A program made the position numbers and the translations under genes. Shown one piece after another: positions 1,773 through 53,940 of a stretch of DNA of 64,000 bases. The stretch spans positions 496,001 through 560,000 of the forward strand of contig NZ_JAINWA010000003.1 in NCBI RefSeq assembly GCF_021021555.1. Reading direction: 5' to 3'. Position 1 is the stretch's first letter. Each line of letters starts with the position of its first letter. Origin of the DNA: Teretinema zuelzerae. Lineage in GTDB: Bacteria > Spirochaetota > Spirochaetia > Treponematales > Treponemataceae. The notes beneath the pieces were generated by a model. The model made no database searches. It had not been told where the DNA came from and was given only the letters and a program-made list of their open reading frames with translations.

Positions 1773-3206
1773 CTAGAATTGGAAATAAATGAACGGGGCA
1801 ATTCCCGCCATCGAAACAACGGACAGGAAGGCGAAGAAAAGGGCCGCGGCGAGAGCCTTCACCGGAAGAGGCAGCGCGCGGTATGCGCGGAACATGACGG
1901 AGAGTACAGACCGGGGGACTGCGTGCATGGCGAGTCCCGCCGTGACGAGAATCACGTTGACAGGCGAAAACTGAAGCGGCGAGAAGCCCTTGAAATTGAG
2001 AAGGGAACGGAAGAAAAGGCCTGCCTGGCCGAGAGAAGCCGAGCGGAACACGATCCAGCTCGCATAGGTGAAGGCGAAGGTTCCGCACACTTGCAGAATT
2101 CTCTTGCCGGGAACGGGAGAAGGAGCCGTTCCGTAATTGAAGGTTCGCTCCAATGCGAGGGCGGCTCCCTGCATGGCTCCCCACAGCAGAAAGGTCCAGG
2201 AAGCTCCGTGCCAGAGGCCGCCGAGCAGCATGGTGGCGAAGAGAGCAAGAAGGGTTCTCGCTGTCCCGAACCGGGATCCGCCGAGGCTGAAATACAGATA
2301 ATTTCTCAGCCATGAGGAAAAGCTGATGTGCCACCGGCGCCAGAAATTGGTGACTGACCACGAGGCGTAGGGCGAATCGAAGTTCGCGGGAGTATGAAAA
2401 CCGAGAAGCAAGGCGATGCCGACCGCCATGTCGCTGTAGCCGGAAAAATCGCAGTAAATGACGACGGCGTAGGCGAGTCCGGCTAAAAACACATCGAGAG
2501 CATGGAACGCGAGGGGATCGAGAAAAACGGGGTCGACCAGAAGCGTCGAAAGATAATTGGCGAAGACCATTTTCTTTAAGAGGCCGAGCATGATATGGAG
2601 GACGGCCCTGTCGAGCTCGATCGGTCGCGAGCCGAGTTCGAGACCCGAGCCGATCGCGCGGGTCATGTCGGGAAAGAAATCCTCGGCATGAACGATCGGA
2701 CCGGAAGCGACCTGGGGGAAGAAGGAAAGATAGTTGAGAACGTCGAGACAGGATTTCACCGCGGGCATCTTGCACAGATATACGTCGAAAACATAGCTCA
2801 TCGCCTTGAACGTATAAAAGGAAATGCCGACCGGCATGACGACATGAAGAAGAGGAAGCAGAAAGCCTCCGCCGCTCCTGGCGAACAGAAGCCCATTCAA
2901 AGAGTCCGCGAAAAAATCGTAGTATTTAAAAAAGCCGAGAAGGGCGACGTTGAAAACGACCGAGAGAACAAGAAACGCCTTTCGTTTCAGATGGTCGCGG
3001 TTCAAGCCGACGAGAAGGCCGAAACCGTAATTCGCTGCCGCCGAGGCGGCGAGGATGAAACAAAACCGCCAGTCCCAAAAGGCGTAAAAGAGGAGGCTGG
3101 CGGCGCAGAGGAACAAGCGGCGTTCAAGGTTCCTTCTGAATACATAGTGGAAACCGATGAACACCGCGAGAAAAAAGAATGCGAATCCGAAAGTTGGAAA
3201 AACCAT
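1773..3206 (-). CDS. MBOAT family O-acyltransferase (AlgI-like)
   Basis: A 477-residue polytopic membrane protein. It carries the MBOAT signature: WRRWHISFSSWLRNYLY and, further on, LLGGLWHGASW with the conserved active-site histidine (WHG). The family (AlgI, PatA, DltB) moves acetyl or other acyl groups across the inner membrane for O-acylation of surface polysaccharide, peptidoglycan or teichoic acid. It starts 6 bp after the ilvB stop, and an AGAGGA site overlaps that junction. It precedes an SGNH partner, the standard MBOAT/SGNH pairing. Its place directly behind ilvB in one operon is odd, because the two functions are unrelated. Confidence 0.88.
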   Translation of the reverse strand: MVFPTFGFAFFFLAVFIGFHYVFRRNLERRLFLCAASLLFYAFWDWRFCFILAASAAANYGFGLLVGLNRDHLKRKAFLVLSVVFNVALLGFFKYYDFFADSLNGLLFARSGGGFLLPLLHVVMPVGISFYTFKAMSYVFDVYLCKMPAVKSCLDVLNYLSFFPQVASGPIVHAEDFFPDMTRAIGSGLELGSRPIELDRAVLHIMLGLLKKMVFANYLSTLLVDPVFLDPLAFHALDVFLAGLAYAVVIYCDFSGYSDMAVGIALLLGFHTPANFDSPYASWSVTNFWRRWHISFSSWLRNYLYFSLGGSRFGTARTLLALFATMLLGGLWHGASWTFLLWGAMQGAALALERTFNYGTAPSPVPGKRILQVCGTFAFTYASWIVFRSASLGQAGLFFRSLLNFKGFSPLQFSPVNVILVTAGLAMHAVPRSVLSVMFRAYRALPLPVKALAAALFFAFLSVVSMAGIAPFIYFQF

Positions 3207-3212
3207 GTTCCT

Positions 3213-4916
3213 CTAGGATTGTGCATCCAAAAGCAATTCGTCAATAGGTTTTCCTGCGGGAACCATCGGAAATACCATTTCATCGATGTCCATGTAGCAG
3301 TCGATCAGCGCGGGCTTCCGCTCCGCGAGGGCCTGATCGAAGGCGGACACGAATTCGGCTTCTGTTTTCGCCCTGAAGCCTCGGATGCCGAAGGCGTCCG
3401 CGAGCTTGACGAAATCCGGCGGACGATCGAGCGTGGTGGCCGAATAGCGCTTGTCGTAGAACATCTTCTGCCACTGGCGGACCATGCCGAGGGTGCCGTT
3501 GTTCGCGACGATGATGATCACCGGCAGATTGTAATGCGAGATCGTCGCAAGCTCGTTGAGGTTCATGCGGAACGAGCCGTCTCCGGCGATATGAACCACG
3601 GTGCGGTCGGGATTTCCCGCCTGGGCGCCCATAGCGGCGCCGGTTCCGTAGCCCATGGTGCCCAAACCGCCCGAGGTCAGGAAGGTGCGGGGCTTGGAGA
3701 ACGGATAAAACTGGGCGACCCACATCTGATGCTGGCCGACCTCTGTCGTAATGATCGCGTCGTCCCCTACCCGCTCGTGCACCGACTCGAGAACGAAGCG
3801 GGGATGAAGCGAGGTTTTCCGCGAATACATCGCGGGAATGTGGGTTTTCCACTCGTCGACGCTGTCGTTCCAGCCGTCGCGGGGGCGAGCGGAAACGAGA
3901 GATACAAGCGAGGCGAGAATTTCCTTGATGTTTCCGTTCAGACAGGCCTGTGTGGGCATGTTTTTATTGATTTCAGCCGGGTCTATGTCGATTTGGAGGA
4001 TCGAGGCGGAACGGGCGAATTTTTTCGGATCGGAGATGACGCGGTCCGAAAATCGGGCGCCCACCGCGATCAGAAGATCGCATTGATTCGCCGCTGTGTT
4101 CGAAGCCTTTGTTCCGTGCATTCCGATCATGCCGGTGCACAGGGCATGCGGAGCGGGGAAAGCCGTTTTGCCCATCAGAGTGACCGAGACCGGCGCGTTG
4201 ATTTTTTCCGCCAGAGCGCGAAGCTCCCCGGACGCGTCGGAGATGACCACGCCGCCGCCGACATAGAAAAAGGGGCGAGCCGATTTTGATATCAGGGCTG
4301 CTGCATCCGCTATCGCCCGGGGACTGGCTACCGGAATTTTAACGTTCGTGCGATTGACGGCCGGAGTATGAACCGAGCCGACCGGCGCCGCAAGAGGAGT
4401 CCACTCGGCAGAAGCCGCGGTGATGTCCTTGGGAATATCGATGAGAACCGGGCCGGGCCTTCCGGACCGGGCGATATCGAAGGCTTCCCGGACTACTCCG
4501 GCGAGTTCGTTCACGTCGCGCACGATGTAATTATGCTTGGTGATACTCATGGTGATGCCGGTAATGTCGACTTCCTGAAAACTGTCCTTGCCTAGAAGAT
4601 GGGTCGGAACGTTGCAGGTGATGGCGACCATCGGAACCGAATCCATGAAGGCGGTGGCGATGCCGGTGACGAGATTGGTGCAGCCGGGACCGCTTGTGGC
4701 CAGGACGACGCCGACTTTTCCGGTCGAGCGGGCGTACCCGTCTGCGGCGTGGGCCGCGCCCTGTTCATGAGCGGTGAGGATGTGCTCTATCCGGTCGGAG
4801 TTCTTATACAATTCGTCGTAAATATTGAGTATGGTTCCGCCCGGATATCCGAATACGGTTTTTACGCCCTGCTCCGCAAGGCACTCGATCACAATTTTCG
4901 CTCCAGTATATTTCAT
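3213..4916 (-). CDS. ilvB: Acetolactate synthase large (catalytic) subunit
   Basis: A 567-residue ThDP enzyme that condenses pyruvate to acetolactate, or pyruvate plus 2-oxobutyrate to acetohydroxybutyrate, for Val/Leu/Ile synthesis. The N-terminus [20 protein letters not shown] is followed by [15 protein letters not shown], the catalytic-glutamate region [13 protein letters not shown], and the ThDP/Mg motif [12 protein letters not shown]...[11 protein letters not shown]. Length and order fit the biosynthetic (AHAS) rather than the catabolic form. The ATG at 4914-4916 overlaps the ilvD stop in an ATGA junction, which implies translational coupling. The in-frame extension to 5006 lies inside ilvD and is rejected. 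The regulatory subunit ilvN is 8 kb away in another operon. Confidence 0.95.
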
Positions 4917-6571
4917 GACAATACAGCTCCCGTATCCGCGCTGGATACCATTTTTGCGTATCGGGCCAGGAAGCCCTTGGTAACTTTGGGTTCGGGAGCC
5001 GTCCATGCGGCTTTTCTCCGCTCGAGCTCCTCGTCCGCTACTTCAAGCTTGATTGAGTACGCGTTTATATCGACGGCGATTATATCGCCTTCCTCGACGA
5101 AGGCGATCGGTCCGCCCACTGCGGCTTCGGGCGAGCAGTGGCCGATCGAGGCTCCCCTGGTAGCGCCGGAAAAGCGGCCGTCGGTGATCAAGGCGACTTG
5201 CTTATCAAGCCCCTGTCCGGCGAGAGCCGCGGTAACGGACAGCATTTCACGCATTCCCGGGCCGCCTCGCGGGCCTTCGTATCTGATGACCACGACGTCT
5301 CCGGCTTTTATGCGATTGTTCATGACCGCCTTGAAACAGTCTTCTTCGGAATTGAAAACGCGCGCCGGTCCTGAATGTTTGAGCATTTCAGGGGCGCAGG
5401 CCGATCTTTTCACGACGCAGCCGTTCGGCGCGAGGTTGCCGAACAGGATGGCGATGCCGCCGGTCGCGGACCAGGGATTGTCGGAGGGACGGAGGACAGC
5501 CGGATTTTTATTGCGGGCATTCTTGATGTTTTCCGCGATCGTCTTGCCGGTAACCGTAAGCAGATCGGTATGAAGGATTCCCTTTTTATCCAATTCCGCA
5601 AGCACCGCCTGAATGCCTCCGGCTTCGTCGAGATCCTCGATGAAGGAGTCTCCGGCGGGAGCAAGGCGGCAAAGGTTCGGAGTGGTTTCGGAAATTTCGT
5701 TAATCCGGCGAAGATTGATTTTTACGCCGGCTTCATGAGCGATCGCGGGCAGGTGCAGGATCGTGTTGGAGCTGCAACCCAGGGCCATATCGGCCGCCAA
5801 AGCGTTTTCGAAGGCTTTTTCGTTCATGATCTGCCGGGCGGTAATGCCCTTTTCGAACATGTCCATTACGGCCATGCCGGCCTTTTTCGCAAGCGCGATG
5901 CGGGCTGAGTATACCGCGGGAATCGTGCCGTTTCCGGGAAGGCCCATCCCGAGAACCTCGGTGACGCAGTTCATCGAGTTGGCAGTGAACATGCCGGAAC
6001 AGGAGCCGCAGGTAGGGCAAGCGCACATTTCCATCTCGCTGAGTTCTTCTTCGCTCATTTTTCCGGCGGCTACCGATCCGACGGCTTCGAACATATTGGT
6101 TAGCGACAGCCGTTTGTTTCCGTATTTTCCGGCAAGCATCGGGCCTCCTGAAACAAACACGGTGGGAAGATCGAGGCGGCCCGCGGCCATGAGCATTCCG
6201 GGAACGACCTTGTCGCAGTTCGGTATCATCACGAGCGCGTCGAATGCATGGGCGGTCGCAACGCATTCGATGGAATCCGCGATGAGCTCGCGGGTGACGA
6301 GCGAATACTTCATGCCTTCGTGATTCATGGCTATGCCGTCGCATACGCCGATCGCGGGGAATTCCATCGGAGTTCCGCCCGCCATTCTGATGCCGGCTTT
6401 AACCGCGTCGACGATCGCGTCAAGATGAATATGACCGGGAATAATCTCGTTCTTTGAATTGACGACTCCGATGATCGGCCGCGCCATTTCTTCGTCCGTA
6501 TAGCCCATTGCCCTGAAAAGCGAGCGATGCGGAGCCCGCTCGATACCCTTCTTCGTTCTTTCGCTTCTCAT
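4913..6571 (-). CDS. ilvD: Dihydroxy-acid dehydratase
   Basis: About 552 residues. Fe-S dehydratase that converts 2,3-dihydroxyisovalerate (and the methylvalerate homologue) to the 2-keto acid in Val/Ile synthesis. Cluster-ligand contexts are visible: [16 protein letters not shown] and [18 protein letters not shown]. The C-terminal [16 protein letters not shown] block is also typical. Two ATGs are adjacent (6574 and 6571). The second is preferred because AGGAGG then lies 6 nt upstream instead of 3. It is the first gene of the ilvD-ilvB-MBOAT-SGNH run. Its upstream region is shared with a divergent XRE regulator and holds repeated CCAATAG boxes and a CTTTCAG/CTGAAAG inverted repeat. Confidence 0.95.
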
Positions 6572-6589
6572 CATATTCCTCCTGAACCG

Positions 6590-6609
6590 CTTTCAGACTC
6601 TGCTGAAAG
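6590..6609. repeat. Inverted repeat CTTTCAG-N6-CTGAAAG upstream of ilvD
   Basis: A perfect 7-bp inverted repeat just upstream of the ilvD ribosome-binding site, in the ilvD leader. The same two arms recur at 7135-7156 in or near the small ORF. It could be an operator or an RNA hairpin in the leader; the sequence alone does not decide. Confidence 0.4.
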
Positions 6610-6625
6610 TGCAATGTTAATTCAT

Positions 6626-6659
6626 CCAATAGATGTTTGCGCAGAATTTGAACCAATAG
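6626..6659. promoter_or_regulatory. Two direct CCAATAG boxes, possible operator for the XRE regulator
   Basis: CCAATAG occurs at 6626-6632 and 6653-6659, 27 bp apart start to start. The second copy fills the end of the spacer of a possible regulator promoter (TTGCGC 6637-6642, N17, TTTACT 6660-6665). The first copy is just upstream of its -35. That placement suits an autoregulatory site that also lies upstream of ilvD. Binding by the adjacent regulator is inference. Confidence 0.35.
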
Positions 6660-6677
6660 TTTACTAACGGTACAACT

Positions 6678-7010
6678 ATGAAGCAATCTTACAACGTCAA
6701 ACAGATAGTAGGAAACAATCTGCGCAAGATCCGAAACCGCCGGAAACTCTCCCAGCTTGACCTTTCGGATCGTACCGGCAGATCTCTGACCTACATAAAC
6801 AATATTGAAAACGGAAAGAAGTTTCTTTCCGAAAAAACCCTGCAATTGCTTTGCACCGCGCTCGAAGCCTATCCTTTCGAATTCTTTTTAACAGACGATA
6901 TCCCGAATCTCGACCAGGCATACGAAATACAAAAAGAACAGGAAAAAATGCTGAACGATCTGAATGAAGTACTCTCCAGATATCAAAGAAAAGGAGAGAA
7001 TTCAGACTGA
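6678..7010 (+). CDS. XRE-family helix-turn-helix regulator
   Basis: A 110-residue protein with a lambda-repressor-like HTH at about residues 9-63: NNLRKIRNRRKLSQLDLSDRTG and YINNIENGKKFLSEKTLQLLC, the usual five-helix pattern. The C-terminal 45 residues are charged and probably helical, possibly for dimerisation. It is divergent from ilvD with about 100 bp between the starts, so it is a candidate regulator of the ilv run and of itself. No Shine-Dalgarno site precedes the ATG. A TTTACT -10 ends 12 nt before it, so the leader would be very short. The ligand is unknown and its role in branched-chain regulation is inferred from position only. Confidence 0.8.
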   Translation: MKQSYNVKQIVGNNLRKIRNRRKLSQLDLSDRTGRSLTYINNIENGKKFLSEKTLQLLCTALEAYPFEFFLTDDIPNLDQAYEIQKEQEKMLNDLNEVLSRYQRKGENSD

Positions 7011-7025
7011 AACAAGGACAGCGAA

Positions 7026-7232
7026 ATGTTAAAAAAAATCGTCGCCCTGTATAATCGTCCAGCAAAAAAAACCGGCGGATTTCTTGTCCGTTCTGCCGGC
7101 GTTCAAACCGGCAGGGGAATGAATCCCTTCAAGTCTTTCAGAAACCACCCTGAAAGGATCGAGATTTCCCCGGAGCCGGCGGAAGAAACCCTTCTCGATC
7201 CGAACTCCATGGAAAACAGTCTTGAACACTAA
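7026..7232 (+). CDS. Possible small protein of 68 residues, unknown
   Basis: Starts 15 bp after the XRE gene with an AAGGA-like site upstream. It begins MLKKIVALYNRPAKKTGGF, is basic in the N-terminal half and acidic at the C-terminus. No family is recognised. The DNA contains two inverted repeats (7093-7114 and 7135-7156), so the stretch could instead be a structured 3' UTR or small RNA. The opposite strand is also open for 66 codons, which weakens the coding case. Confidence 0.3.
   Translation: MLKKIVALYNRPAKKTGGFLVRSAGVQTGRGMNPFKSFRNHPERIEISPEPAEETLLDPNSMENSLEH
7093..7156 (+). repeat. Two inverted repeats inside the small ORF
   Basis: CTGCCGG-N8-CCGGCAG lies at 7093-7114 and CTTTCAG-N8-CTGAAAG at 7135-7156. 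The second has the same arms as the ilvD-leader repeat at 6590-6609. Neither is followed by a T run, so these are not ordinary terminators. Confidence 0.4.
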
Positions 7233-7247
7233 TTAAAACGATCCGAG

Positions 7248-8342
7248 TCAGAGCGCTTTCAGCGCCTCGACGACGAGGTCGCCCATTTTCTTCGTACCGA
7301 CAAGCTTATCTCCGAGGCGCGAACGGGCCTCGGCACCACCGGCGATATCCCCGGTGCGCCAACCGGCGTCCAATACCTTTTCGACAGCCGCTTCGATCGC
7401 CGCCGATTCCTTCTCCATCGAAAAAGAATACCGCAGCATCATCGCGCAGGTGAGAATCGTCGCGAGAGGATTCGCGAGATCCTTCCCGGCGATGTCGGGC
7501 GCCGAGCCGTGGATCGGCTCATAGAGGCCGGGGCCCGAGTCGCCGAGGGATGCTGAGGCGAGCATGCCGATCGAGCCGGTGATCTGGCTGGCTTCGTCGG
7601 ACAAGATGTCGCCGAACATATTGCTGGTAACTATGACGTCGAACTGGCGGGGATTGCGGACAAGCTGCATCGCGGCGTTGTCGACGTACATGTAGGAAAG
7701 CTCGACTGTCGGATAGGAGGCCTTCATGGCCTCGGTTACTTCGCGCCAGAGGCGGCTTGTTTCGAGAATATTCGCCTTGTCTACTACGCACAGCTTGTTT
7801 TTCCGCTTCATTGCGGATTCGAATCCGATCTTTACGACCCGCTCGATCTCTGGAATGCTGTAGGCTTCGGTATCCCAGGCGGCGGTATTATCCGCGTTTC
7901 TGCCGCGGTCGCCGAAATAAATCCCGCCGGTCAGTTCGCGGACGATCAGAATATCCAGGCCGTCGCCGACTACTTCGCTCTTCAGGGGGCACGCGTCCGC
8001 GAGCTGGCGGAACATGAGGGCGGGCCGGAGATTAGCGTACACCTTCATGCCGGCGCGCAGTCCGAGCAGGGCTTTTTCCGGACGCTTCGAGCCGGGAAGA
8101 GTATCCCATTTCGGGCCGCCGACCGCGCCGAGAAGCACTGCGTCGCTTGCGAGGCAGGCGTCAAGGGTCGCCTGAGGAAGGGGTTCGCCGGTCGCGTCGA
8201 GGGCGGCTCCGCCGGCGAGAACCGGCGTATACGAGAACGAATGGCCGAACTTTAATCCGACGGCGTCGAGCACGCGGCATCCTTCGCGCACGATATCAGG
8301 TCCGATTCCGTCTCCCGGAATAGTTGCAATTTTGCAGTTCAT
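7248..8342 (-). CDS. leuB: 3-Isopropylmalate dehydrogenase
   Basis: About 364 residues. NAD-dependent oxidative decarboxylase of 3-isopropylmalate in leucine synthesis. It may also act on the methylmalate of the citramalate route. The start [18 protein letters not shown] is followed by [29 protein letters not shown], and the metal site in [30 protein letters not shown] fits LeuB rather than isocitrate dehydrogenase. The ATG at 8342 sits about 9 nt after GAGGTG; a TTG at 8348 is too close to the site. It is 94 bp downstream of cimA. A weak TTTACA-N18-TATTGT promoter may lie in that gap. Confidence 0.94.
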
Positions 8343-8436
8343 GTTCAATCACCTCTTTAAGTATTTATAAAGTAATGCAGTCTGGTTAAATACAATACCC
8401 TTTGAACCGGTTGTTTGTAAAGACCGCGCAGGGTCA

Positions 8437-10068
8437 TTACAGATACGCGCGAAAACGCTTTTCCACGTCCGTAATCAGCTTGTATTCGAAGGAATCCACC
8501 AGGGCAAGCCAAGACGCCTCGATAAGGTCGCTTGAAACTCCTACCGTAGTCCACACTTCCTCGCCGTCGGTCGATTCGATCAATACGCGCACCTTCGCGG
8601 CAGTCGCGCTGCGCGAATCGAGAACGCGAACCTTGAAGTCGGTGAGGCGAATCTGGCGCACGCCGGGATAGAAGCGTTCAAGGCCCTTTCTGAGCGCGCA
8701 GTCGAGGGCGTGGACGGGACCGTCTCCTTCGCCGGCGGTTATGGCCATTTCCCCTTCGACGCCGATTTTCACCTGGGCGAACGCGGTGCAGGTCACGTCG
8801 TCGATCGGCTGTTCGCCGATTATCTTGTAATAATGAAGGTCGAAGAAGGGTTTGTATTTGCCCATATTCTTCCTGACTAACAACTCGAAGCTTCCCTCGG
8901 CGCCTTCGAACTGATAGCCTTCGTGTTCAAGCTCTTTCACCCTGGCGACGATCTGCGCAGCCAGAGGGGTGTCCTTCTTGATGTTCGGATCGAATTTGCG
9001 GATCTTTTCTATAATCATGGAGCGGCCCGCAACCTCGCTCATAAGGAAGGTGCGTTCGTTGCCCACGGCATCAGGCGGCACATGCTCGTAGGCGGTAGAG
9101 TTCTTGGTGACCGCGTCGATGTGCATTCCGGCCTTATGCGCGAAGGCATTGTGCCCTACGAAGGGCATGCCGCCTTCGAGGTTGATGTTGGCTATTTCCG
9201 CGATTCGGCGGGCCACAGGAGTAAGATCAGCGACGCGCCCGGCAGGAATACAGGGAATATGCATCTTGAGCTCGAGGTTCGCGATGATCGTGGAAAGATT
9301 GGCGTTGCCGGTTCGTTCGCCGAAGCCGAGCATCGTTCCCTGCACCTGGACAGCACCTCCCTTGACGGCGAGAATCGAGCTCGCGACAGCCATGCCGGTG
9401 TCGTTGTGGCAGTGTATTCCGACCGGGATGCCGAACTCGGCGACCACTTTTTCCGTCATTAATTGTATGTCGTCCGGAAGAGTGCCTCCGTTCGTGTCGC
9501 AAAGAACGAGAGCCGAAGCCCCGCCTTCAGCAGCCGCGCGAAGGGTTTCCATCGCGTAGCCGGGATTGGAGCGGAACGCATCGAAGTAATGCTCTGCGTC
9601 GTAAAATACCGTGCGGCCTTCGCCGACCAGAAACGCGACGGTGTCGCGGATCATGGCGAGGTTTTCTACCAGCGTGGAACGGAGAATTTCAGTAACATGG
9701 AAATCCCAGGTTTTTCCGAAGATGCACACATATTCGGTACCGGCCGCGAGGAGGCTCCGGAGGTTCTGGTCGGACGAGGCGTCAATGTCCTTCCGCCTGG
9801 TGGAACCGAAGGCGACCAGATGGGAATTGGAAAGTTCGATCTTCTTCACTTCCTCGAAAAACTCGAGGTCCTTCGGATTAGAACCGGGATTGCCTGCTTC
9901 AATAAAAGCTACTCCGAGTTCGTCCAGGGCGCGGACGATGTGCAGCTTGTCCTGGACGGAAAAGCTGATCCCCTCGCCCTGGGCGCCGTCGCGCAGAGTC
10001 GAATCGAATATATGAACGTTTCTGAGCAGCCCGTTTTTATCCTGCGCTCCGTCTTTTTGATCCTTCAT
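8437..10068 (-). CDS. cimA: (R)-citramalate synthase
   Basis: A 543-residue HMGL-like acyltransferase that condenses pyruvate and acetyl-CoA to citramalate, giving threonine-independent isoleucine. The N-terminal catalytic barrel has FDSTLRDGAQGEGISFSVQD, the metal-binding HCHNDTGMAVA and GTMLGFGERTGNANL. These variants (GAQGEGI; GFGERTGNANL) distinguish the CimA subfamily from LeuA (GEQAPG; GLGERAGNAAL in the neighbour). The C-terminal 130 residues form the LeuA-type regulatory domain. The ATG at 10068 is 10 bp after the leuA stop, with GAGGAG 6 nt upstream, so it is co-transcribed with leuA. Confidence 0.92.
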   Translation of the reverse strand: MKDQKDGAQDKNGLLRNVHIFDSTLRDGAQGEGISFSVQDKLHIVRALDELGVAFIEAGNPGSNPKDLEFFEEVKKIELSNSHLVAFGSTRRKDIDASSDQNLRSLLAAGTEYVCIFGKTWDFHVTEILRSTLVENLAMIRDTVAFLVGEGRTVFYDAEHYFDAFRSNPGYAMETLRAAAEGGASALVLCDTNGGTLPDDIQLMTEKVVAEFGIPVGIHCHNDTGMAVASSILAVKGGAVQVQGTMLGFGERTGNANLSTIIANLELKMHIPCIPAGRVADLTPVARRIAEIANINLEGGMPFVGHNAFAHKAGMHIDAVTKNSTAYEHVPPDAVGNERTFLMSEVAGRSMIIEKIRKFDPNIKKDTPLAAQIVARVKELEHEGYQFEGAEGSFELLVRKNMGKYKPFFDLHYYKIIGEQPIDDVTCTAFAQVKIGVEGEMAITAGEGDGPVHALDCALRKGLERFYPGVRQIRLTDFKVRVLDSRSATAAKVRVLIESTDGEEVWTTVGVSSDLIEASWLALVDSFEYKLITDVEKRFRAYL

Positions 10069-10078
10069 TCAGCTCTCC

Positions 10079-11614
10079 TCACAATTCCTGTCCGAGTTCG
10101 AAGGTCATCGCGTTGATGGCCGACAGATACGCCTTGAGGGTTGATTCCACGATATCCGTGGATACGCCTGAACCGTTCCAGGAGCGTCCGTCGCGGGAAA
10201 TGCGGATATGCGATTCGCCCTGAGCGTCGGCTCCGGTATCTGTGGCGTCTACGATCTGAAGGGAGAAATCCTCCAGTTTGATTTCCGAGCCGCCGATTAT
10301 CTTGTCCACCGCATTCAAGGAAGCGTCGACAGGGCCGTCTCCAATGGAAACTTTTTCCACCCGGGTTCCGTCTTTCATGACGAGGCGCACCACAGAAGTA
10401 GCAGTTATTGAAGAACCGGAATTGATGACGAAGCGGTCGAGCTTGTAGGTTTCGGGAATTCCGCCGGAAGAACCGGTAACGAGGGCGTCGATATCCCGGT
10501 CGGAAACGGTTTTCTTTTTATCGGCGAGAACCTTGAACTCTTCGAACAGAGAGGCCAGCCGTTCTTCGCTTACGCGGTGTCCGAGGTACACCAGGCGCTC
10601 CTCGAAGGCATGGCGTCCGGAGTGCTTTCCAAGAACCATCTTGTTGTGCGGGAGGCCGATGGACTCCGGCGTCATGATTTCGTAGGTCGCGCGGTTCGCC
10701 AGCACGCCGTGCTGATGGATTCCGGATTCGTGCGCGAAGGCGTTTTCGCCGACGACGGCCTTGTTCGGCTGGCTGCGTACGCCGGTAGCCTTGGAAACTT
10801 TCTTGGAAGCCTGCCATATCTGGGTCGAATCCACCCGCGTCGTCATGTTGTAATAATCCTTGCGGGTATAGAGATTCATGACGATTTCCTCGAGCGCGGC
10901 GTTTCCGGCGCGTTCCCCGAGGCCGTTTACGGTGCATTCGATCTGATCGGCGCCGGCCATCGCGGCGGCAAGGCTGTTTGCCACGCCGAGACCGAGATCA
11001 TTATGGCAGTGAACCGATATGACGGCCTTGTCGATATTCGGAACATTATTCTTGATGCCGCGGATGAGAGCCGAGAATTCCTCGGGAACCGCATAGCCTA
11101 CCGTATCGGGGATATTGACGGTGGAAGCTCCCGCGTTGATGACGCCTTCGATAACCCGGTACATGAAGGCCGGGTCCGAGCGGGACGCGTCTTCCAGGGA
11201 GAACTCGACGTCGCCGCACAGATTGCGGGCATAGGCGACCATTTTAACCGCCTGTTCGTACACCTGGTCGGGAGTCTTTTTCAGCTTGTATTCCATATGC
11301 AACGGACTCGTCGCCAGGAAGGTGTGTATGCGGGGGCTTTCAGCGTCGCGGATCGCGTTCCACGCGGCGTCGATATCCTTTTCCAGGGCCCGGGACAGGG
11401 ATGCAACGGTTACGCCCTTTATTGAGCGGGCGATAGCCTGGACGGACTGAAAATCTCCGGGACTTGCTATGGCAAAACCGGCTTCGATAATATCTACGCC
11501 CAGCCGCGCAAGGCTCTCCGCAACTTCAAGCTTGTCCTGCAGATTCATGCTGCATCCGGGGGCCTGTTCGCCGTCGCGCAAGGTCGTATCGAAAATCTTG
11601 ATCTGTCGTGCCAT
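10079..11614 (-). CDS. leuA: 2-Isopropylmalate synthase
   Basis: About 511 residues. It condenses 2-ketoisovalerate with acetyl-CoA as the first committed step to leucine. Motifs: IFDTTLRDGEQAPGCSMN, EDASRSD, HCHNDLGLGVANS, GLGERAGNAALEE, and the subdomain block HESGIHQHGVL. The C-terminal regulatory domain (about 390-511) is where leucine binds in the family. The ATG at 11614 follows AAGGAG at 8 nt; an in-frame GTG at 11623 overlaps the site. It is first in the leuA-cimA-leuB run and divergent from an AAA ATPase gene across an AT-rich 149-bp gap. Confidence 0.95.
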   Translation of the reverse strand: MARQIKIFDTTLRDGEQAPGCSMNLQDKLEVAESLARLGVDIIEAGFAIASPGDFQSVQAIARSIKGVTVASLSRALEKDIDAAWNAIRDAESPRIHTFLATSPLHMEYKLKKTPDQVYEQAVKMVAYARNLCGDVEFSLEDASRSDPAFMYRVIEGVINAGASTVNIPDTVGYAVPEEFSALIRGIKNNVPNIDKAVISVHCHNDLGLGVANSLAAAMAGADQIECTVNGLGERAGNAALEEIVMNLYTRKDYYNMTTRVDSTQIWQASKKVSKATGVRSQPNKAVVGENAFAHESGIHQHGVLANRATYEIMTPESIGLPHNKMVLGKHSGRHAFEERLVYLGHRVSEERLASLFEEFKVLADKKKTVSDRDIDALVTGSSGGIPETYKLDRFVINSGSSITATSVVRLVMKDGTRVEKVSIGDGPVDASLNAVDKIIGGSEIKLEDFSLQIVDATDTGADAQGESHIRISRDGRSWNGSGVSTDIVESTLKAYLSAINAMTFELGQEL

Positions 11615-11748
11615 AAGTAACACTCCTTCAATGTGATAGCGAAAATGTACCCGGTTTGCCCGACCCCATCAATACAAAATCTTGCATAGTCGTGTAATTT
11701 TCGTCTTATATAATTAATTTAAATCTGGTAATTTTTTTAATTGTTTAT

Positions 11749-11754
11749 TATAAT
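11749..11754 (+). promoter_or_regulatory. -10 box TATAAT for the AAA ATPase gene, leaderless layout
   Basis: A consensus TATAAT ends 9 nt before the ATG at 11764 and no Shine-Dalgarno sequence fits between. No good -35 is seen 17 bp upstream. The predicted transcript start is at or within about 3 nt of the start codon. Confidence 0.5.
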
Positions 11755-11763
11755 TGACAAATA

Positions 11764-12990
11764 ATGCAAATCAATAGAGAAAAGCTGCTGACGGAAGCTA
11801 TCTCCATGAGAAACGAGTCCAAAATCATTCTCATTACCGGAACGCACCGATCAGGCAAGTCGACATTTCTTGGACAGATAGCGCGGGAACTGCGCTCCGT
11901 ACGCCCTCCGCTGCGCATCATTCAGGCAAGCGGTTCGGAAAGAATCCGAACGGGAGCCGATCTTCTCGGCGAGGTCCGTTCGCTCGGCGTCGGGCCGTCA
12001 GCCCTCCTCATCGACGACGCGGACAGAATCGAGGGATTAATCGAAGCCGCGTCGCAGATCATCCGAAAGTATGAAACGGTGATCTATCTTACCGGACGAA
12101 GAACAAAACGCCTGGAAACAGCGGGCAGAAAAGCGTTCTCCCCCTACTTTGCCGCAGTTCGCCTGTATCCCGCCGGCTACCTCGATTATCTGAACGCGCT
12201 TGAGCTGCAGGACTCCCGGGTGCACTTCGAATCCTTTCTGAAAACAGGAGGGCTTCCCGACTGGATGAATCTCCCGCTGTCGCTTCCCGGCAGGGACATC
12301 TACCTTGAATCGCTCGGGAATTCGTTCTTGCTTACCGAGGTACTCGAGGCCCGGGGCATCAGAAATCCGGCTCATGTACGCATGCTGCTTGAAACGCTCG
12401 CGCGCTCCGCGGGAGAGCCGCTGCCGGCGCGCGAAATCGCCCTGGCGCTTGCCGCACGTATGGCGACTATCTCGCCGCAATCGGTATTGGAATATCTAAA
12501 AGCATGCGAAGAAGAGGGATTGATCGAGTCACTTCCGGTATGGGATATCACGCGCAAAAAACTGCTGGATACGGCCTCGGCATGGTATTTTACCGATTGC
12601 GGACTCCGCTTCCCCTACGCAAACGCGGCGGCGAAAAACGAAGCGGATAAAGCTTCTCAAACCGCCGTCTATAATCATCTAACACGGGAGGGATGGACGG
12701 TCTACCAGGGACGGGTCGATCTGTCCCGTCAAATCAAGGAAACCATCCAGTTCGTGTGCGAACGGGGAGGAAAACGGCTGTACATACAGATGACCGGCTC
12801 GTCCGAAGGCGAGGCCGAACGAATCAGAAAACAAAAAGCCCTGCTCGCGGCGAGGGACGCATGGCCGAAATATATAATAGGCGCCGAAAACGAGGGCGTA
12901 AGTCCTGAGGGAATCGGAAGAATCCGAGTCCGCACGTTTCTTGCCGCGGAACCGGGAGACGCGCTTTTGACCGAACGGTCGGCGAAATAA
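11764..12990 (+). CDS. AAA ATPase with DUF4143-type C-terminal domain
   Basis: A 408-residue ATP-binding protein. Walker A is GTHRSGKST (about 26-34) and the Walker B-like strand is SALLIDDADRIE (about 78-89). A winged-helix-like segment follows (about 210-270). The C-terminal domain has WYFTDCGLRFPYANAA and a nuclease-like fold core, as in the DUF4143 family of orphan ATPases. Cellular role unknown. It stands alone, divergent from leuA and convergent with ilvN. The start lacks a ribosome-binding site but has a TATAAT box 9 nt upstream, so the mRNA is probably leaderless. Confidence 0.8.
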   Translation: MQINREKLLTEAISMRNESKIILITGTHRSGKSTFLGQIARELRSVRPPLRIIQASGSERIRTGADLLGEVRSLGVGPSALLIDDADRIEGLIEAASQIIRKYETVIYLTGRRTKRLETAGRKAFSPYFAAVRLYPAGYLDYLNALELQDSRVHFESFLKTGGLPDWMNLPLSLPGRDIYLESLGNSFLLTEVLEARGIRNPAHVRMLLETLARSAGEPLPAREIALALAARMATISPQSVLEYLKACEEEGLIESLPVWDITRKKLLDTASAWYFTDCGLRFPYANAAAKNEADKASQTAVYNHLTREGWTVYQGRVDLSRQIKETIQFVCERGGKRLYIQMTGSSEGEAERIRKQKALLAARDAWPKYIIGAENEGVSPEGIGRIRVRTFLAAEPGDALLTERSAK

Positions 12991-12996
12991 ATAAAA

Positions 12997-13024
12997 GCCC
13001 CTCGGCGAACGAATCGCGAGGGGC
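12997..13024 (-). terminator. Rho-independent terminator after ilvN
   Basis: Stem GCCCCTCG/CGAGGGGC of 8 bp with a 12-nt loop, followed on the minus strand by TTTTATTTATTT. It lies 30 bp past the ilvN stop and terminates the thrA-aro/phe-ilvN operon. On the plus strand it also sits just after the AAA gene stop but lacks a T run there. Confidence 0.85.
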
Positions 13025-13054
13025 CTGAACATAATCGATTATCGAAGGAAGCCT

Positions 13055-13546
13055 CTATTCAAGAACTGTTTGGCCGCGCTCCATCGCCGTCAGGCCGGTT
13101 CGCACCAGCTCGAGAATTCCGAAGGGCTCCAAAAGTTTGATCAGTCCTGCGATCTTTTCCTCGCTGCCGGTCGCTTCGATGACAAGGGATTCGGTCCCCA
13201 CATCGACGATGCGCGCGCGGAAGATGTTCGCGGTTTCAATGACGCCGACTCTGCTTGTGCCGACGGCGGAAACCTTGATGAGCGCGAGCTCGCGGACAAC
13301 GGTCGCAGACGGGTCGCACTGCCTGATGGACACGACTTCGACCAGTTTGGCCAGCTGTTTTTCAATCTGCTCCAGGATATATTCGTCCCCGCGAACGACG
13401 ATCGTCATGCGGGAGCGTTCGCTCTTTTCCGTGACTCCGACGGTAAGGCTGTCGATATTATATCCGCGGCGGCTGAAAAGACCGGAAACGCGGCTTAGAA
13501 CGCCGGAATGATTTTCCACCAAAACCGAAATAACGTATCGTTTCAT
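13055..13546 (-). CDS. ilvN: Acetolactate synthase small (regulatory) subunit
   Basis: A 163-residue protein of usual IlvN/IlvH length. The N-terminal ACT domain (about 1-75) reads YVISVLVENHSGVLSRVSGL and RRGYNIDSLTVG, the valine-binding signature. A second ACT-like domain follows (about 80-160). It confers valine feedback control on IlvB, which is encoded 8 kb away. The ATG overlaps the preceding TAA by one base (TAATG), and AAGGAG lies inside the upstream gene, so translation is probably coupled. It is the last gene before the terminator at 12997-13024. Confidence 0.95.
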   Translation of the reverse strand: MKRYVISVLVENHSGVLSRVSGLFSRRGYNIDSLTVGVTEKSERSRMTIVVRGDEYILEQIEKQLAKLVEVVSIRQCDPSATVVRELALIKVSAVGTSRVGVIETANIFRARIVDVGTESLVIEATGSEEKIAGLIKLLEPFGILELVRTGLTAMERGQTVLE

Positions 13547-15513
13547 TATATCTCCTTCGCGCTGTAGAGGCCGAGAACCCGAACGCCCTGTACTATGCCG
13601 TTATCCTGACTGATTTTCTCCATTTCTGCAAGTGCGGAGCGGATTCTTTCGGCGGAGACCACGCTCGAACCGACGCCCTCAGGAAGGGATACGTTCGCGT
13701 AGAAGCGGTATCTCCAGGGTTCTCCCTGGATGGGCCTGGATTCGAGCTTGGTGAGGTTAAGCCCGTGCTTCATGAAAAGACCGAGAGCCGAATGGAGAGA
13801 TCCGGGTTCGTTCGCCGTCGAGAAGATGACAGAGGCATGGTTCGGAGCGTCGCAGACGACCTCTCCCGAGCGGGCGATGACGACGAAGCGGGTATAGTTG
13901 CGGGGATCGGTTTCGATGCCGGATTTGAGGGCGTCGAGGCGGTACAGCGGACCGGCGACGTCGCTCGCGATCGCGGCCTTCGATGGATCGCCCGAAGAGG
14001 CAACCAGTTCCGCGGCAGCCGAGGTGGATTCGGTTTCGATATGCTTCCAGTGGGGATATTTCGCGAGAAATTCGGAACACTGGGCGAGGCCCTGCGGATG
14101 CGAATAGACGGTTTCAATGCCGTCGATCGAGGCGCCTTTCACCGCGAGAAGAGAATGTTCGATGCGCAGCGTCGCTACTCCGATTATTTCAATATCCTCG
14201 TAACGGGCCAGGTTATCGTAGTTTTCGTATACCGAACCGGCAAGGCTGTTCTCTATCGGCAGCATCCCCGTATCGGCCCGGCCGTCCAGAACGGCGTTTA
14301 TCACCTCGCGGAAATTCTGTACGGGAAGAGAGGCCGCATCGTCGTCGTAGTATCTGCGGATAGCCTGTTCGGCGTATGCTCCCCTGCCCCCGGCATAGGC
14401 GCACACGGAAGGCCCGTTTTTCCTGCCGGCGACGGCCGCAGCGGCGTTTTGAGACTGAGCGGCGGTTCCGGGAACGGAAAGCTTGCCCTGAAGCCGGCGT
14501 CGGGAAACCGAGCGGCCGACGACCGGAGCGAGGACTTCGATATCGCGCATCATCTTTTCGAACTGGGCGGGATACAGGGACTGGGCGCCGTCGGAAAGCG
14601 CGCACTCGGGGCAGGGATGCACTTCGACGATGAGGCCGTCCGCTCCGGCGGCTACGGCGGCGAGGCCCATCGGGGGAACCTTGTCGCGAACGCCGACGGC
14701 ATGGCTCGGATCGACGATAATGGGAAGATGAGTCAGCGAGCGGAGCACCGGAATGGCCGAAAGATCGAGGGTGTTGCGGGTCGCCTTTTCATAGGTGCGG
14801 ATTCCCCGTTCGCAGAGAATCACGTCCTCGGTTCCGCTTGCCAGCAGGTATTCCGCCGCCATCAACCATTCCTCGATCGTAGCGGACAGGCCGCGCTTCA
14901 GGATGACCGGGCGTCCGAGTGCTCCGACCTTTTTTAACAGCTCGAAGTTCTGCATGTTGCGGGCGCCGATCTGATACACGTCTACATAGTCGATCATGGC
15001 GGGAATATGTTCGGACGAGACGATTTCAGTTACGACGGGAAGGCCGTACGCGTCGCCGGCTTCGCGGAGAATCTTCACGCCTTCTTCGGCCATGCCCTGG
15101 AATGCATAGGGGCTCGTCCTCGGCTTATACGCGCCGCCGCGAAGCATGACGGCCCCGGACTCGGCCACGCGGGCGGCTGATTCCATCATTTGTTCAAGGC
15201 TTTCAACCGCGCAGGGGCCGGCGATAACCGACACGCGGTTTCCGCCGATCTTCACGCCGCGTACGGAAACGACGCTGTTGTCGCGCTTAAATTCGCGCGA
15301 AGCCATTTTATAGGGCTTCGATATGGGAATGACGCGCTGAACGCCGGGAAGTATTTCCACCTCCCGGGGATCGATCCCCACCCGTCCTACGGCGCCGAAA
15401 ATAGTTTCTTCGTCTCCGGCAATCTCATTCACCCGCAGAGAATTTTTTTCCAAAAAGGTTCTGATGCGCTGTTTGTCGTCGTCGCGGATATTCTTTTCAA
15501 GTACGATTACCAT
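13546..15513 (-). CDS. DAHP synthase-prephenate dehydratase fusion
   Basis: A 655-residue fusion. Residues about 1-70 are the ferredoxin-like N-terminal domain of type Ib DAHP synthases. Residues about 75-340 form the catalytic barrel: SVIAGPCAVES, LRGGAYKPRTSPYAFQG, IGARNMQN, KRGLSATIEEW, LPIIVDPSHAVG and ADGLIVEVHPCPE. A roughly 30-residue Ala/Gln-rich linker leads to a prephenate dehydratase domain (about 372-560): YAGGRGAYAEQAI, LPIENSLAGSVYENYD and NYTRFVVIA, which holds the catalytic TRF. The C-terminal ACT domain (about 565-650) has the Phe-binding KLESRP block. No chorismate mutase domain is present. It joins the first shikimate enzyme to a late phenylalanine enzyme. The start overlaps thrA by 7 nt, with AAGGAC upstream. 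Confidence 0.93.
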   Translation of the reverse strand: MVIVLEKNIRDDDKQRIRTFLEKNSLRVNEIAGDEETIFGAVGRVGIDPREVEILPGVQRVIPISKPYKMASREFKRDNSVVSVRGVKIGGNRVSVIAGPCAVESLEQMMESAARVAESGAVMLRGGAYKPRTSPYAFQGMAEEGVKILREAGDAYGLPVVTEIVSSEHIPAMIDYVDVYQIGARNMQNFELLKKVGALGRPVILKRGLSATIEEWLMAAEYLLASGTEDVILCERGIRTYEKATRNTLDLSAIPVLRSLTHLPIIVDPSHAVGVRDKVPPMGLAAVAAGADGLIVEVHPCPECALSDGAQSLYPAQFEKMMRDIEVLAPVVGRSVSRRRLQGKLSVPGTAAQSQNAAAAVAGRKNGPSVCAYAGGRGAYAEQAIRRYYDDDAASLPVQNFREVINAVLDGRADTGMLPIENSLAGSVYENYDNLARYEDIEIIGVATLRIEHSLLAVKGASIDGIETVYSHPQGLAQCSEFLAKYPHWKHIETESTSAAAELVASSGDPSKAAIASDVAGPLYRLDALKSGIETDPRNYTRFVVIARSGEVVCDAPNHASVIFSTANEPGSLHSALGLFMKHGLNLTKLESRPIQGEPWRYRFYANVSLPEGVGSSVVSAERIRSALAEMEKISQDNGIVQGVRVLGLYSAKEI

Positions 15514-18029
15514 GTTATTGTCCTTAATATGTCTGCGAATACGCCGGACGCGGTTACATCGGCGCCGGCTCCGTACCCTCTGATCACCAGGGGTATGGGC
15601 GAATAATACTTCGTCGTGAAGACGAATGCGTTCTCTCCTCCGCGGATGGCCGCAAGGGGATCCGCGAGAAGGGCTTCGACCGGTCCGACGCGGGCGGTTC
15701 CCTTCGAGCCGTCGATGGAGGCGGCGAAGCGGAGCACCTTTCCCGATGAGGAGAGGGCCTGTATGCGTTCGGCGAACCAGGCATCCGCGCGGGGAAGACG
15801 TTCCAGAAATTCCTGCACCGATCCGGACGAATCAAAATCAGGGGGGAATACCGAGTCGATGCGGACATCGGAAAGCTCAAGCTCCAGCCCGGCTTCGCGC
15901 GCGATGATGAGGGCCTTCCGCGCCACATCCATGCCGGACAGGTCGTCCCGCGGATCAGGCTCCGTAAAGCCTTTTTCGCGGGCTTCGAGAACCGCCCGGG
16001 AGAAGGAGGCTCCTTCGTCGAGCCGGCCGAAGATATACGACAGAGAGCCGGACATGATGCCGGAGAACGCCGTCAGCGAATCTCCCGATTTCAGCATGTT
16101 CCGGAAGGTATCGATGACGGGAAGCCCCGCGCCGACGTTCGTCTCGTACAGGAAGCGTTTGCGGCTCGCTGCGGCCGTCTTCCTCAGCTCGCGGTAATAA
16201 TCCATTGTAAAGGAATTCGCGCGCTTGTTCGGAGTAATGACGTGCATGCCGGCGCGCAGTACGTCGCAATACCGCTCGGGCAAGGCTCCGGTCGCGGTGC
16301 AGTCCACGAATACCGGATTCAAGGGCTGCTCTGCCTTTACGAAGGCGATGATATCATCCACGGAGGTATGAGTCTGCGCCTGGTCGAGCAGATCTTTCCA
16401 GCCGTCCAGAGGAAGTCCTTCCTTGTTCAGAACCATCCTGCGGGAATTGGCGATTCCCCATACGCGCAGATCGACGAAGCTTTTGCGCAATTCCTCCTGC
16501 TGGCTGCGAATCTGATCGAGGAGCTTTCCGCCGACTACGCCGAGGCCGAAAAGAAACAACTCGATGGTTTGCATGGTATTGAAAAAGAAACGATGCGCAA
16601 TGCGGACAGCCTTGTCGCCGTCCTCGCCGGAAACGACGGTGCTGATCGAACGCTCGGAAGACCCCTGCGCGATGGCATGGATGTTGATCCCTCCGAACGC
16701 AAGGGAAGAAAAGAAAGTTCCCGCGACGCCGCGGCGTTCTTTCATGCCGTCGCCGACGATCGACACGATCGACATCCCTTTTTTAACGGAAATTTCGTCG
16801 ATCAGGTGTTCGCGAATTTCCAGGGCGAATTCTTCCTGAAGGGCGAATTTGACATCGTGGTATTCGGTCCCCCGTACGCAAAAGCTGATCGTATATTCGG
16901 AACTCGATTGGGTGATGAGGAGCACCGACACTCCGGAGCGGCCGACGGCGCCGAAAACGCGGGCGGCTGTTCCCTGCTTTCCCTTTAAGCCGGCGCCGGA
17001 AACGCTTACCAGGGCGACGTCCTTTAGGCAGGTTACGCCCCGGACGGGACCGGCGGCGGGATCGGAGGCGATCGAATCAGAGGCGGCGATGCGGGTTCCG
17101 CGCGCGGTCCGGTTGAAGCTGTTCAAACTCCATGTTTCGATCCTGCGGGCGGCTATCGGCATGATGGTTTTCGGATGAAGAACCTTCGATCCGAAGAAGG
17201 AGAGCTCCATGGCTTCCTCGTAGCTGATGTCGCTTACGAGAACTGCGTCTTTTACAATTCTCGGATCCGCGGTATAGATGCCGTCCACGTCAGACCAGAT
17301 CTCCAGCTTATCGGCGTTCAAGCCCATTGCGTAGAGAGCCGCTGAAAAATCCGAGCCGTTCCTGCCCAGAAGAGATTGCTTTCCGGAGGAGTCCGACGCG
17401 ATGAAGCCCGCGGCGAGCAGAATCGGCTCGGAAGAGCTGCGATAGGAAGAAAGAGCCGATTCTATTTTTTCATAGACCGGATCGCCTTCTGTCAGGCGGC
17501 CTTCAGTCCATATTATCGATCTGCTGTCCAGAACCGCCGGCGGCAAGGATTTCGCCCGCAGGAGTTCGGCGAAAATGGGCACGCATAGCCGTTCGCCCAA
17601 CCCCATTATTCTCGCCTCGACGGATTCAGGGCATTCGCCGAAGGAAGCAACGGCTGAAAGAAGGCGTTCATATTCTTCGAATATCGCATCCAGAGCGGCG
17701 AGAACGCCGGTTTTATTGTAACCGGCAACAGACAAAGCAAGAGAATCCAGTATCGCGGCATGCGTTGTCTTTACCGAAAAAACCGCATCGGCGGCGCTGG
17801 TAAAACCGTCTGTGCTGGTAGTTGCCGCGGGTCTGGCCGACGCGGCAGGAGCGCCGGAAAGAGAGAGCGCAAAAGAAATACTGTCCTGAAGGCGGTTAGA
17901 AACGCCTCCGACAGCTGAAACGACAACACCGACCCGTTCCTTCCGGGCCCGGTCGCGGATAATGTCCACAGCGGAACACATCCGGTCGGCGCTTCCCATG
18001 GAAGTGCCGCCAAATTTCATAACCAGCAT
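15507..18029 (-). CDS. thrA: Bifunctional aspartokinase/homoserine dehydrogenase
   Basis: About 840 residues. The N-terminal aspartokinase starts MLVMKFGGTSMGSADR and includes GRNGSDFSAALYA and WSDVDGIYTADPR. Two ACT domains follow (about 310-460; VSVSGAGLKGKQGTAARVF and VSIVGDGMKERRGVAGTFF). The homoserine dehydrogenase begins with the NAD(P) motif FLFGLGVVGGKLL (about 465) and has ETNVGAGLPVIDTF and GIMSGSLSYIF. It catalyses the first and third steps from aspartate to threonine and supplies semialdehyde to lysine via DapL. A 30-residue Ala/Ser/Thr-rich insert lies at about 60-90. The ATG at 18029 follows GAGG at 5 nt and is preferred to a GTG at 18035. Confidence 0.95.
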   Translation of the reverse strand: MLVMKFGGTSMGSADRMCSAVDIIRDRARKERVGVVVSAVGGVSNRLQDSISFALSLSGAPAASARPAATTSTDGFTSAADAVFSVKTTHAAILDSLALSVAGYNKTGVLAALDAIFEEYERLLSAVASFGECPESVEARIMGLGERLCVPIFAELLRAKSLPPAVLDSRSIIWTEGRLTEGDPVYEKIESALSSYRSSSEPILLAAGFIASDSSGKQSLLGRNGSDFSAALYAMGLNADKLEIWSDVDGIYTADPRIVKDAVLVSDISYEEAMELSFFGSKVLHPKTIMPIAARRIETWSLNSFNRTARGTRIAASDSIASDPAAGPVRGVTCLKDVALVSVSGAGLKGKQGTAARVFGAVGRSGVSVLLITQSSSEYTISFCVRGTEYHDVKFALQEEFALEIREHLIDEISVKKGMSIVSIVGDGMKERRGVAGTFFSSLAFGGINIHAIAQGSSERSISTVVSGEDGDKAVRIAHRFFFNTMQTIELFLFGLGVVGGKLLDQIRSQQEELRKSFVDLRVWGIANSRRMVLNKEGLPLDGWKDLLDQAQTHTSVDDIIAFVKAEQPLNPVFVDCTATGALPERYCDVLRAGMHVITPNKRANSFTMDYYRELRKTAAASRKRFLYETNVGAGLPVIDTFRNMLKSGDSLTAFSGIMSGSLSYIFGRLDEGASFSRAVLEAREKGFTEPDPRDDLSGMDVARKALIIAREAGLELELSDVRIDSVFPPDFDSSGSVQEFLERLPRADAWFAERIQALSSSGKVLRFAASIDGSKGTARVGPVEALLADPLAAIRGGENAFVFTTKYYSPIPLVIRGYGAGADVTASGVFADILRTITW

Positions 18030-18170
18030 ATACACCTCGTCGATACGATAGCGTTTCTTACAGAATCGCTTCCGTACACAATACCTGATAAGGTTGCATT
18101 AGTTCTAGGGGGCGATTTGCATATTTATGCATTTAAATTGTATAAATTATATAAGCGTTATATAAAAAAA

Positions 18171-18210
18171 ACCGCCGCGAGGGATAAGCGAGAAAATCCC
18201 ACGCGGCGGT
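18171..18210 (-). terminator. Strong hairpin with T run, terminator or thrA attenuator
   Basis: Outer arms ACCGCCGCG/CGCGGCGGT (9 bp) and inner arms GGGAT/ATCCC. On the minus strand eight T residues follow. It probably ends the histidine kinase-response regulator transcript. Because it lies 140 bp before thrA, a role in attenuation of thrA cannot be excluded. Confidence 0.8.
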
Positions 18211-18301
18211 CTTATAAAAAAAGAAAAAGAAAGTTTTTTACCTCGATGTTTTACTTAAGCCAATCATACGCAATGAAAAGCCTGTTGTCTTGAGAGTGGC
18301 C

Positions 18302-18351
18302 TCCCGAGATTTGCACGGTATCTTCGGGAGTTTTTCCCAAACATCGGGAGT
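18302..18351. repeat. One CTCCCGA and two TCGGGAG arms, mutually exclusive hairpins
   Basis: CTCCCGA at 18302-18308 can pair with TCGGGAG at 18325-18331 or at 18345-18351. On the plus strand each right arm is followed by T residues (five and three). On the minus strand this is two left arms competing for one right arm, just beyond the response-regulator stop. Confidence 0.5.
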
Positions 18352-18361
18352 TTAGGATGTT

Positions 18362-53730: not shown

Positions 53731-53940
53731 GGTTCATTTCAAAGGAAGGGGGTGAAAATCCCCCGCTAAACCCGTAACTGTGAATGGGGACGATTCCGTC
53801 GAGGAAAGCCACTATCGCCGTTGCGACTCGAAGCCGTCGGCTTGCGGGACGCGACAGGATGGGAAGGCTGCACGGAAAAGGACGCCGGGAGAAACCCTCC
53901 CGCAGACACCCATGAGCCAGGAGACTTTGGTGACCGACCA
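53731..53940 (+). ncRNA. Cobalamin (AdoCbl-type) riboswitch
   Basis: The leader contains the class hallmarks in order: AAAGGAAG and GGGTGAAAATCCC, then CGGTAACTGTGAA-like text (cccgtaactgtgaatgggg), GCCACTATC, GGGAAGG, and the 3' B12 box GAGCCAGGAGACT at 53914-53926. About 45 nt separate the box from the ATG of the lipoprotein gene, and no T run is present. Control is therefore more likely at translation initiation, with GGTG after the box able to pair near GGAGACACC. High B12 should repress the lipoprotein and receptor genes. Confidence 0.9.

Follow-up and report, generated by a model that had tools for sequence, protein, structure and literature searches.

The closest described systems are the controller proteins of type II restriction-modification loci. 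These autoregulatory proteins have leaderless C transcripts, paired dyads and boxes of the form GACT-tat-AGTC (PMC4824078); a second source gives the AGTC core (PMC5282649). C.AhdI, C.BclI, C.PvuII, C.Esp1396I and C.Csp231I are small XRE-fold proteins with paired dyads in their own promoters, those of C.Csp231I being separated by an 18-nt spacer (PMC4824078). A third report describes C.Kpn2I as a transcription roadblock near overlapping divergent promoters (PMC6237814).

The locus described here lies in a 64-kb stretch of DNA (the whole of which is called the window below) from the 3.62-Mb, three-contig genome of Teretinema zuelzerae. On the minus strand, family profile matches give the gene order leuA, cimA, leuB, ilvD, ilvB. 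The leuB stop and the ilvD start are 673 nt apart, and the plus strand of this interval, antisense to both genes, carries an XRE-family regulator gene followed by a 68-aa ORF. The features of the region, promoter elements being predictions, are:

4913-6574, minus strand: ilvD, dihydroxy-acid dehydratase (TIGR00110, E 8.5e-238), divergent from the XRE gene
6590-6609: CTTTCAG-N6-CTGAAAG inverted repeat before ilvD; overlaps site A; unconserved
6598-6614: site A, a 17-bp dyad related to site C, just before ilvD; judged eroded in the window, where it reads CTCTGCTGAAAGTGCAA
6626-6632: distal CCAATAG, found in the window only
6637-6642, plus strand: XRE -35, TTGCGC (TTGCNN at the same position in all seven promoters compared, spacer 17)
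6648-6664: site C, the 17-bp dyad TTGAACCAATAGTTTAC, from promoter alignments and a block pattern search
6659-6675: possible extra site GTTTACTAACGGTACAA, 11 bp from site C
6660-6665, plus strand: XRE -10, TTTACT, ending 12 nt before the ATG
6678-7010, plus strand: XRE-family regulator, 110 aa (Pfam HTH_3, AlphaFold2 model, alignment)
7026-7232, plus strand: small ORF, 68 aa, following the XRE gene and containing the second CTTTCAG repeat
7135-7156: CTTTCAG-N8-CTGAAAG inverted repeat, inside the 68-aa ORF
7248-8348, minus strand: leuB (TIGR00169, E 5.1e-147)

The interpretation that appears reasonably likely is that of a small stand-alone XRE autoregulator, with its promoter in 6575-6677, which may also repress ilvD.

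Among 118 family genomes, the 68-aa ORF has no convincing homologue beyond the genome it comes from (the best such match reaches E 0.019), and four family libraries give no match to it. By eye, unlike, basic small ORFs with Shine-Dalgarno-like starts follow the XRE gene in four other members of the genus. Further along the window, a minus-strand promoter-like site, TTGATT-16-TATAAT (11747-11774), precedes leuA and is a possible start of a leuA-cimA-leuB transcript; three such sites occur in the region against 1.1 expected. A plus-strand 408-aa ORF (11764-12990), ATPase-like by eye, runs antisense between the gene for the acetolactate synthase small subunit and leuA, and has no NCBIfam match at E 1e-10. 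A cobalamin riboswitch (RF00174, 58.3 bits) lies on the plus strand at 53742-53927.

The regulator matches Pfam HTH_3 over residues 15-68 (E 4.6e-10; 39.8 bits against a curated cut-off of 23) and is 37-47% identical to six aligned relatives, the stretch S-x-T-[FY]-[IV]-N-N-I-E-N being common to all seven proteins of the group. Its AlphaFold2 model (mean pLDDT 86.7) comprises the HTH domain and one long C-terminal helix, residues 78-107, with no second domain. Only HTH families pass the Pfam cut-offs, no ligand-binding domain of the RAM or ACT type being found, and no NCBIfam model passes at all. Because the model holds an HTH and a single long helix, with no ligand domain, direct sensing of amino acids by this protein appears unlikely; the original prediction had suggested a local control circuit for branched-chain synthesis, and a response to branched-chain amino acids is left unsupported by these results. 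The closest solved structures in the PDB, by sequence and by structure, include C.BclI and C.AhdI. ClgR and other stand-alone HTH_3 regulators have the same fold by Foldseek and by a structural second look. In the second look ClgR and many other XRE-fold proteins scored alike, with only residues 4-75 widely covered, so that the fold alone decides little. The regulator is set apart from ClgR by its score of 29.9 bits against a ClgR model cut-off of 170 and by a different genomic setting. Viral relatives were found at eight loci, with 34-44% identity over part of the protein.

Unlike controller proteins, the regulator is a 110-aa protein with a 30-residue C-terminal helix, encoded within a cluster of genes for branched-chain amino acids. 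At six loci of the group the immediate neighbours of the regulator gene are ilvD and leuB, at a seventh they are pth and mazG, and none of these is a restriction or modification gene. Since no such gene adjoins and the box differs (see below), the window protein is, on this comparison, controller-like in plan but is not classed as a controller protein.

Seven promoters of the group, five from the genus and two from Brucepastera parasyntrophica, align without gaps as site A (17 bp), 33 bp and site C (17 bp). Site C spans most of the spacer of the XRE promoter and five of the six bases of the -10, which reads TTTAAT in five promoters, TGTAAT in G006 and TTTACT in the window. The commonest form of the site is TTRAACCAATAGTTTAA; five of the seven fit AACCAATAGT and the others read ACACCAATAGT and AAGCCAACAGT. 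A block pattern derived from these promoters, TTTGC-N8-TRNRCCAAYAGTKTAM, was searched in 274 family genomes and matched exactly seven places in six genomes, all of them the known promoters; outside these, one match with one mismatch was found, with no XRE gene nearby. A scan for promoter-like sites in 6300-7800 returned none (1.0 expected); the -35 of the XRE promoter is weak. The -10 ends 6, 6, 6, 7, 10, 12 and 13 nt before the ATG in the seven promoters, and for this reason the XRE mRNA is predicted to be leaderless or nearly so, like the controller transcripts (PMC4824078). The possible extra site ranks second among the matrix hits in the 64 kb (12.2), a rank to be read against a matrix drawn from the same sites and a reversed control that reaches 13.8; it is not seen in the other six promoters.

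The core of site C is the proximal CCAATAG (6653-6659), one of the motifs in which the original prediction had seen a control circuit shared by the XRE gene and ilvD. As it stated, CTTTCAG/CTGAAAG repeats lie before ilvD and downstream of the regulator, and two CCAATAG copies flank the likely XRE -35. Comparison with the corresponding regions of relatives, which it had proposed as a check, separates these motifs: the proximal CCAATAG is conserved, and the repeats and the distal CCAATAG, taken there as shared control elements, occur only in the window. The proximal box is invariant in the five promoters of the genus that have the regulator, and reads CCAAYAG in all seven promoters of the group (CCAACAG in one); the distal box is absent from the four other promoters of the genus, which have CCACCGG, CCCTTGG, CTACTGG and CTGTTGG instead. 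CCAATAG is not enriched in the 64 kb (two copies on both strands, 3.7 expected). The CTTTCAG/CTGAAAG repeat has two matches in the window against none in 100 shuffles, and three places genome-wide (the third at C1:1495555) against one for a reversed control. It was ruled out as the operator, none of the 10 related loci searched carrying it; four of those loci lack the regulator. Thus, one motif of the original prediction is conserved, so that its own ground for refutation, that neither would be, does not apply; most of its motifs are private to the window genome.

Site A begins exactly 50 bp upstream of the start of site C. Its clearest form, TTGTACTNNNAGTACAA, is found in G006 and G010. The spacing was evaluated with a matrix built from the C sites only, the tested row being omitted, over 181 offsets and with 2000 shuffles per promoter. 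Offset 50 ranked first of 181 in six of the seven promoters, the window being the exception; the best of 181 was bettered in 0 (G011), 2 (G007), 19 (G006) and 178 (G010) of the 2000 shuffles, and in 17 and 113 for the ilvD-linked and pth-linked copies of Brucepastera, respectively. The top offset in the window is 27, which is the distal CCAATAG, while offset 50 comes only fourth and 1455 of the 2000 shuffles do better; on these grounds the window's site A is regarded as eroded. It contains CTGAAAG, the right arm of the CTTTCAG-N6-CTGAAAG repeat, and scores 10/14 against a consensus drawn from the same sites. The four members of the genus without the XRE gene have best consensus hits before ilvD of 9-11/14 at scattered positions, and by score alone the window site is no better than these.

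Counted from the centre of site A, the ilvD start lies at a variable 25-40 nt in six species, the A-C distance remaining constant at 50, and the Brucepastera paralogue beside pth and mazG retains both sites although it has no ilvD. For these two reasons the pair, judged from its sequence, belongs to the XRE promoter and is fixed to it, not to ilvD. The dyads recall those of controller proteins in that three of the seven A sites have an ACT-N3-AGT core resembling the GACT-tat-AGTC box (PMC4824078), flanked however by T/A instead of G/C; the complete GACT-tat-AGTC box was not found among the A and C sites of the seven promoters. The 50 bp between starts, with 33 bp in between, also differs from the 18-nt spacer reported for C.Csp231I (PMC4824078). 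No wider regulon was seen in six genomes, the dyad not being enriched away from this locus: the pattern TTRNACYN3RGTNYAA occurs at 12 places, against 19 for the pattern read backwards. Seven of the 12 are at the XRE locus; the three of the window genome are all elsewhere, since its own sites miss the strict pattern.

Full-length ilvD (at least 81% identity) is present in nine of 12 genomes of the genus, and in five of these (the source genome, G006, G007, G010 and G011) the XRE gene is divergent from it. In the other four, leuB ends 17 (G009), 30 (G004), 66 (G002) and 83 nt (G005) before ilvD, and nothing matches the regulator profile at E 1e-15. Brucepastera parasyntrophica, a member of the same family, has the same ilvD-XRE-leuB layout, which is thus found in six species and two genera; the related loci are named Treponema or Spirochaetales, and the family is the Treponemataceae. 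The second Brucepastera XRE gene (L054, 4980-5312), beside pth and mazG, is the sister of the ilvD-linked copy (94/92); with the A/C pair kept there, the regulator gene and its promoter appear to have been transferred as a unit. Set against seven relatives from other family genera, the regulators cluster together (96/95, with a program warning of long branches). On an ilvD tree of 21 rows, G031 being left out, the XRE label needs four changes (three to five in bootstrap trees), a value as low being reached by 52 of 500 shuffles; well-supported branches force at least two. The four changes point to more than one gain or loss of the XRE gene beside ilvD and, together with its absence from four of the nine ilvD-bearing members of the genus, indicate that the link is not essential. 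The leuB-ilvD gap was read for 10 of the 21 rows, Brucepastera not among them; in the five XRE-bearing species so measured it is 584-721 nt, with the XRE gene antisense within it. In two members of the genus without the XRE gene (loci L037 and L042, before position 1501), a hairpin seen by eye and an extended -10, TGCTATACT, lie between leuB and ilvD, because of which ilvD may have its own promoter there.

The conserved paired-dyad promoter is probably autoregulatory, the XRE regulator probably controlling its own gene. Because site C overlaps the XRE promoter, the simplest reading is negative autoregulation, in which XRE dimers would occupy site C and shut off the gene; binding at site A, with or without looping to site C, would tune this control. 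Control of ilvD by the regulator is possible. The same occupancy might, with less certainty than for autoregulation, also lower ilvD-ilvB transcription, either by masking an ilvD start at or close to site C or by blocking polymerase arriving from leuB. C.Kpn2I offers a precedent for a roadblock near overlapping divergent promoters, but its site lies inside its own coding region and it controls restriction-modification genes (PMC6237814). An extended -10 in the ilvD direction overlaps site C in four of six species (TTTAAT, TTTAAT, TTTAAG and TGTAAT), the two without it being the window's and G007, a raw count with no shuffled control and one that the dyad itself favours; it is this overlap that makes joint repression of the XRE gene and ilvD from site C possible. 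The level of ilvD expression might then be set by the amount of regulator rather than by a bound amino acid, again a less certain step.

The main competitor of this interpretation, a credible though clearly less probable one, is that sites A and C act on the XRE gene alone, with ilvD a bystander that owes most of its transcription to read-through from leuA-cimA-leuB. Its likelihood overlaps with that of the favoured reading, the autoregulatory part being common to both. Since the pth/mazG-linked paralogue of Brucepastera has both sites at 50 bp in the absence of ilvD, an explanation of the pair does not require ilvD. Neither the window nor G007 yielded a good ilvD promoter, leaving none that is clear in the window, and the 17-83 nt between leuB and ilvD in the four XRE-less members of the genus look operon-like. 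Against it, the XRE-ilvD neighbourhood recurs in six species of two genera, and read-through becomes less sure where the longer gap, with its antisense XRE gene, parts leuB from ilvD. The local XRE-ilvD circuit of the original prediction is plausible by its recurrent layout and by a promoter block with one CCAATAG that, but for one other place in 274 family genomes, is confined to these promoters; the conserved dyads, however, are attached to the XRE promoter.

Three further explanations are improbable. That a regulator other than the XRE protein binds A and C seems quite unlikely: the block sits at the group's promoters in two genomic settings, plus one other place, and all seven proteins share the S-x-T-[FY]-[IV]-N-N-I-E-N stretch. 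Hardly more plausible, and if anything slightly less so, is repression of ilvD, via the CTTTCAG and CCAATAG boxes, by an XRE protein acting as a sensor of branched-chain amino acids. The position of the gene between leuB and ilvD would suit such a circuit, as would the lack of a T-box, none having been visible to the original prediction and none being found by Rfam search, either across the window at the gathering threshold or, with E up to 5, in 3000-18500. However, the repeats and the distal box are confined to the window, the protein passes only HTH families in Pfam and none in NCBIfam, its model lacks a second domain, and the conserved sites keep a constant position relative to the XRE promoter. 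Least probable of all is an RNA-hairpin role for site A within the leader of ilvD, acting on translation or attenuation. Of 42 cells, 90.5% pair in the ilvD sense versus 81.0% in the other, through G-U pairs, and the window has a 7-bp hairpin of its own at site A; but 76 of 500 shuffles reach the pairing value in the ilvD sense, as do 25 of 500 for the opposite sense, folding of the window leader is no better than that of shuffles (z -0.03), no U run follows site A in the sequences, and it is the A-C distance, not that from A to ilvD, which is constant. A terminator or attenuator reading of the region was also rejected, 6300-7800 holding two terminator-like sites against 2.0 expected.

In the openly available literature, as far as it could be accessed, nothing turned up on how these spirochaetes regulate branched-chain amino acid synthesis or on an XRE-ilvD circuit. 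It is conceivable, if doubtful, that a controller-like switch no longer tied to restriction-modification became lodged between leuB and ilvD in a single lineage of the Treponemataceae. There, a two-operator loop or roadblock of fixed geometry would determine branched-chain gene output through regulator concentration and not amino acid sensing, the whole regulator-plus-promoter module being copyable elsewhere, as in Brucepastera. If the favoured reading of a stand-alone autoregulator is true, the locus would represent a controller-protein-like autoregulatory module outside restriction-modification. Brucepastera parasyntrophica, which carries both an ilvD-linked and a separate copy, is an organism in which control of the regulator gene only and control of ilvD would be directly distinguishable.
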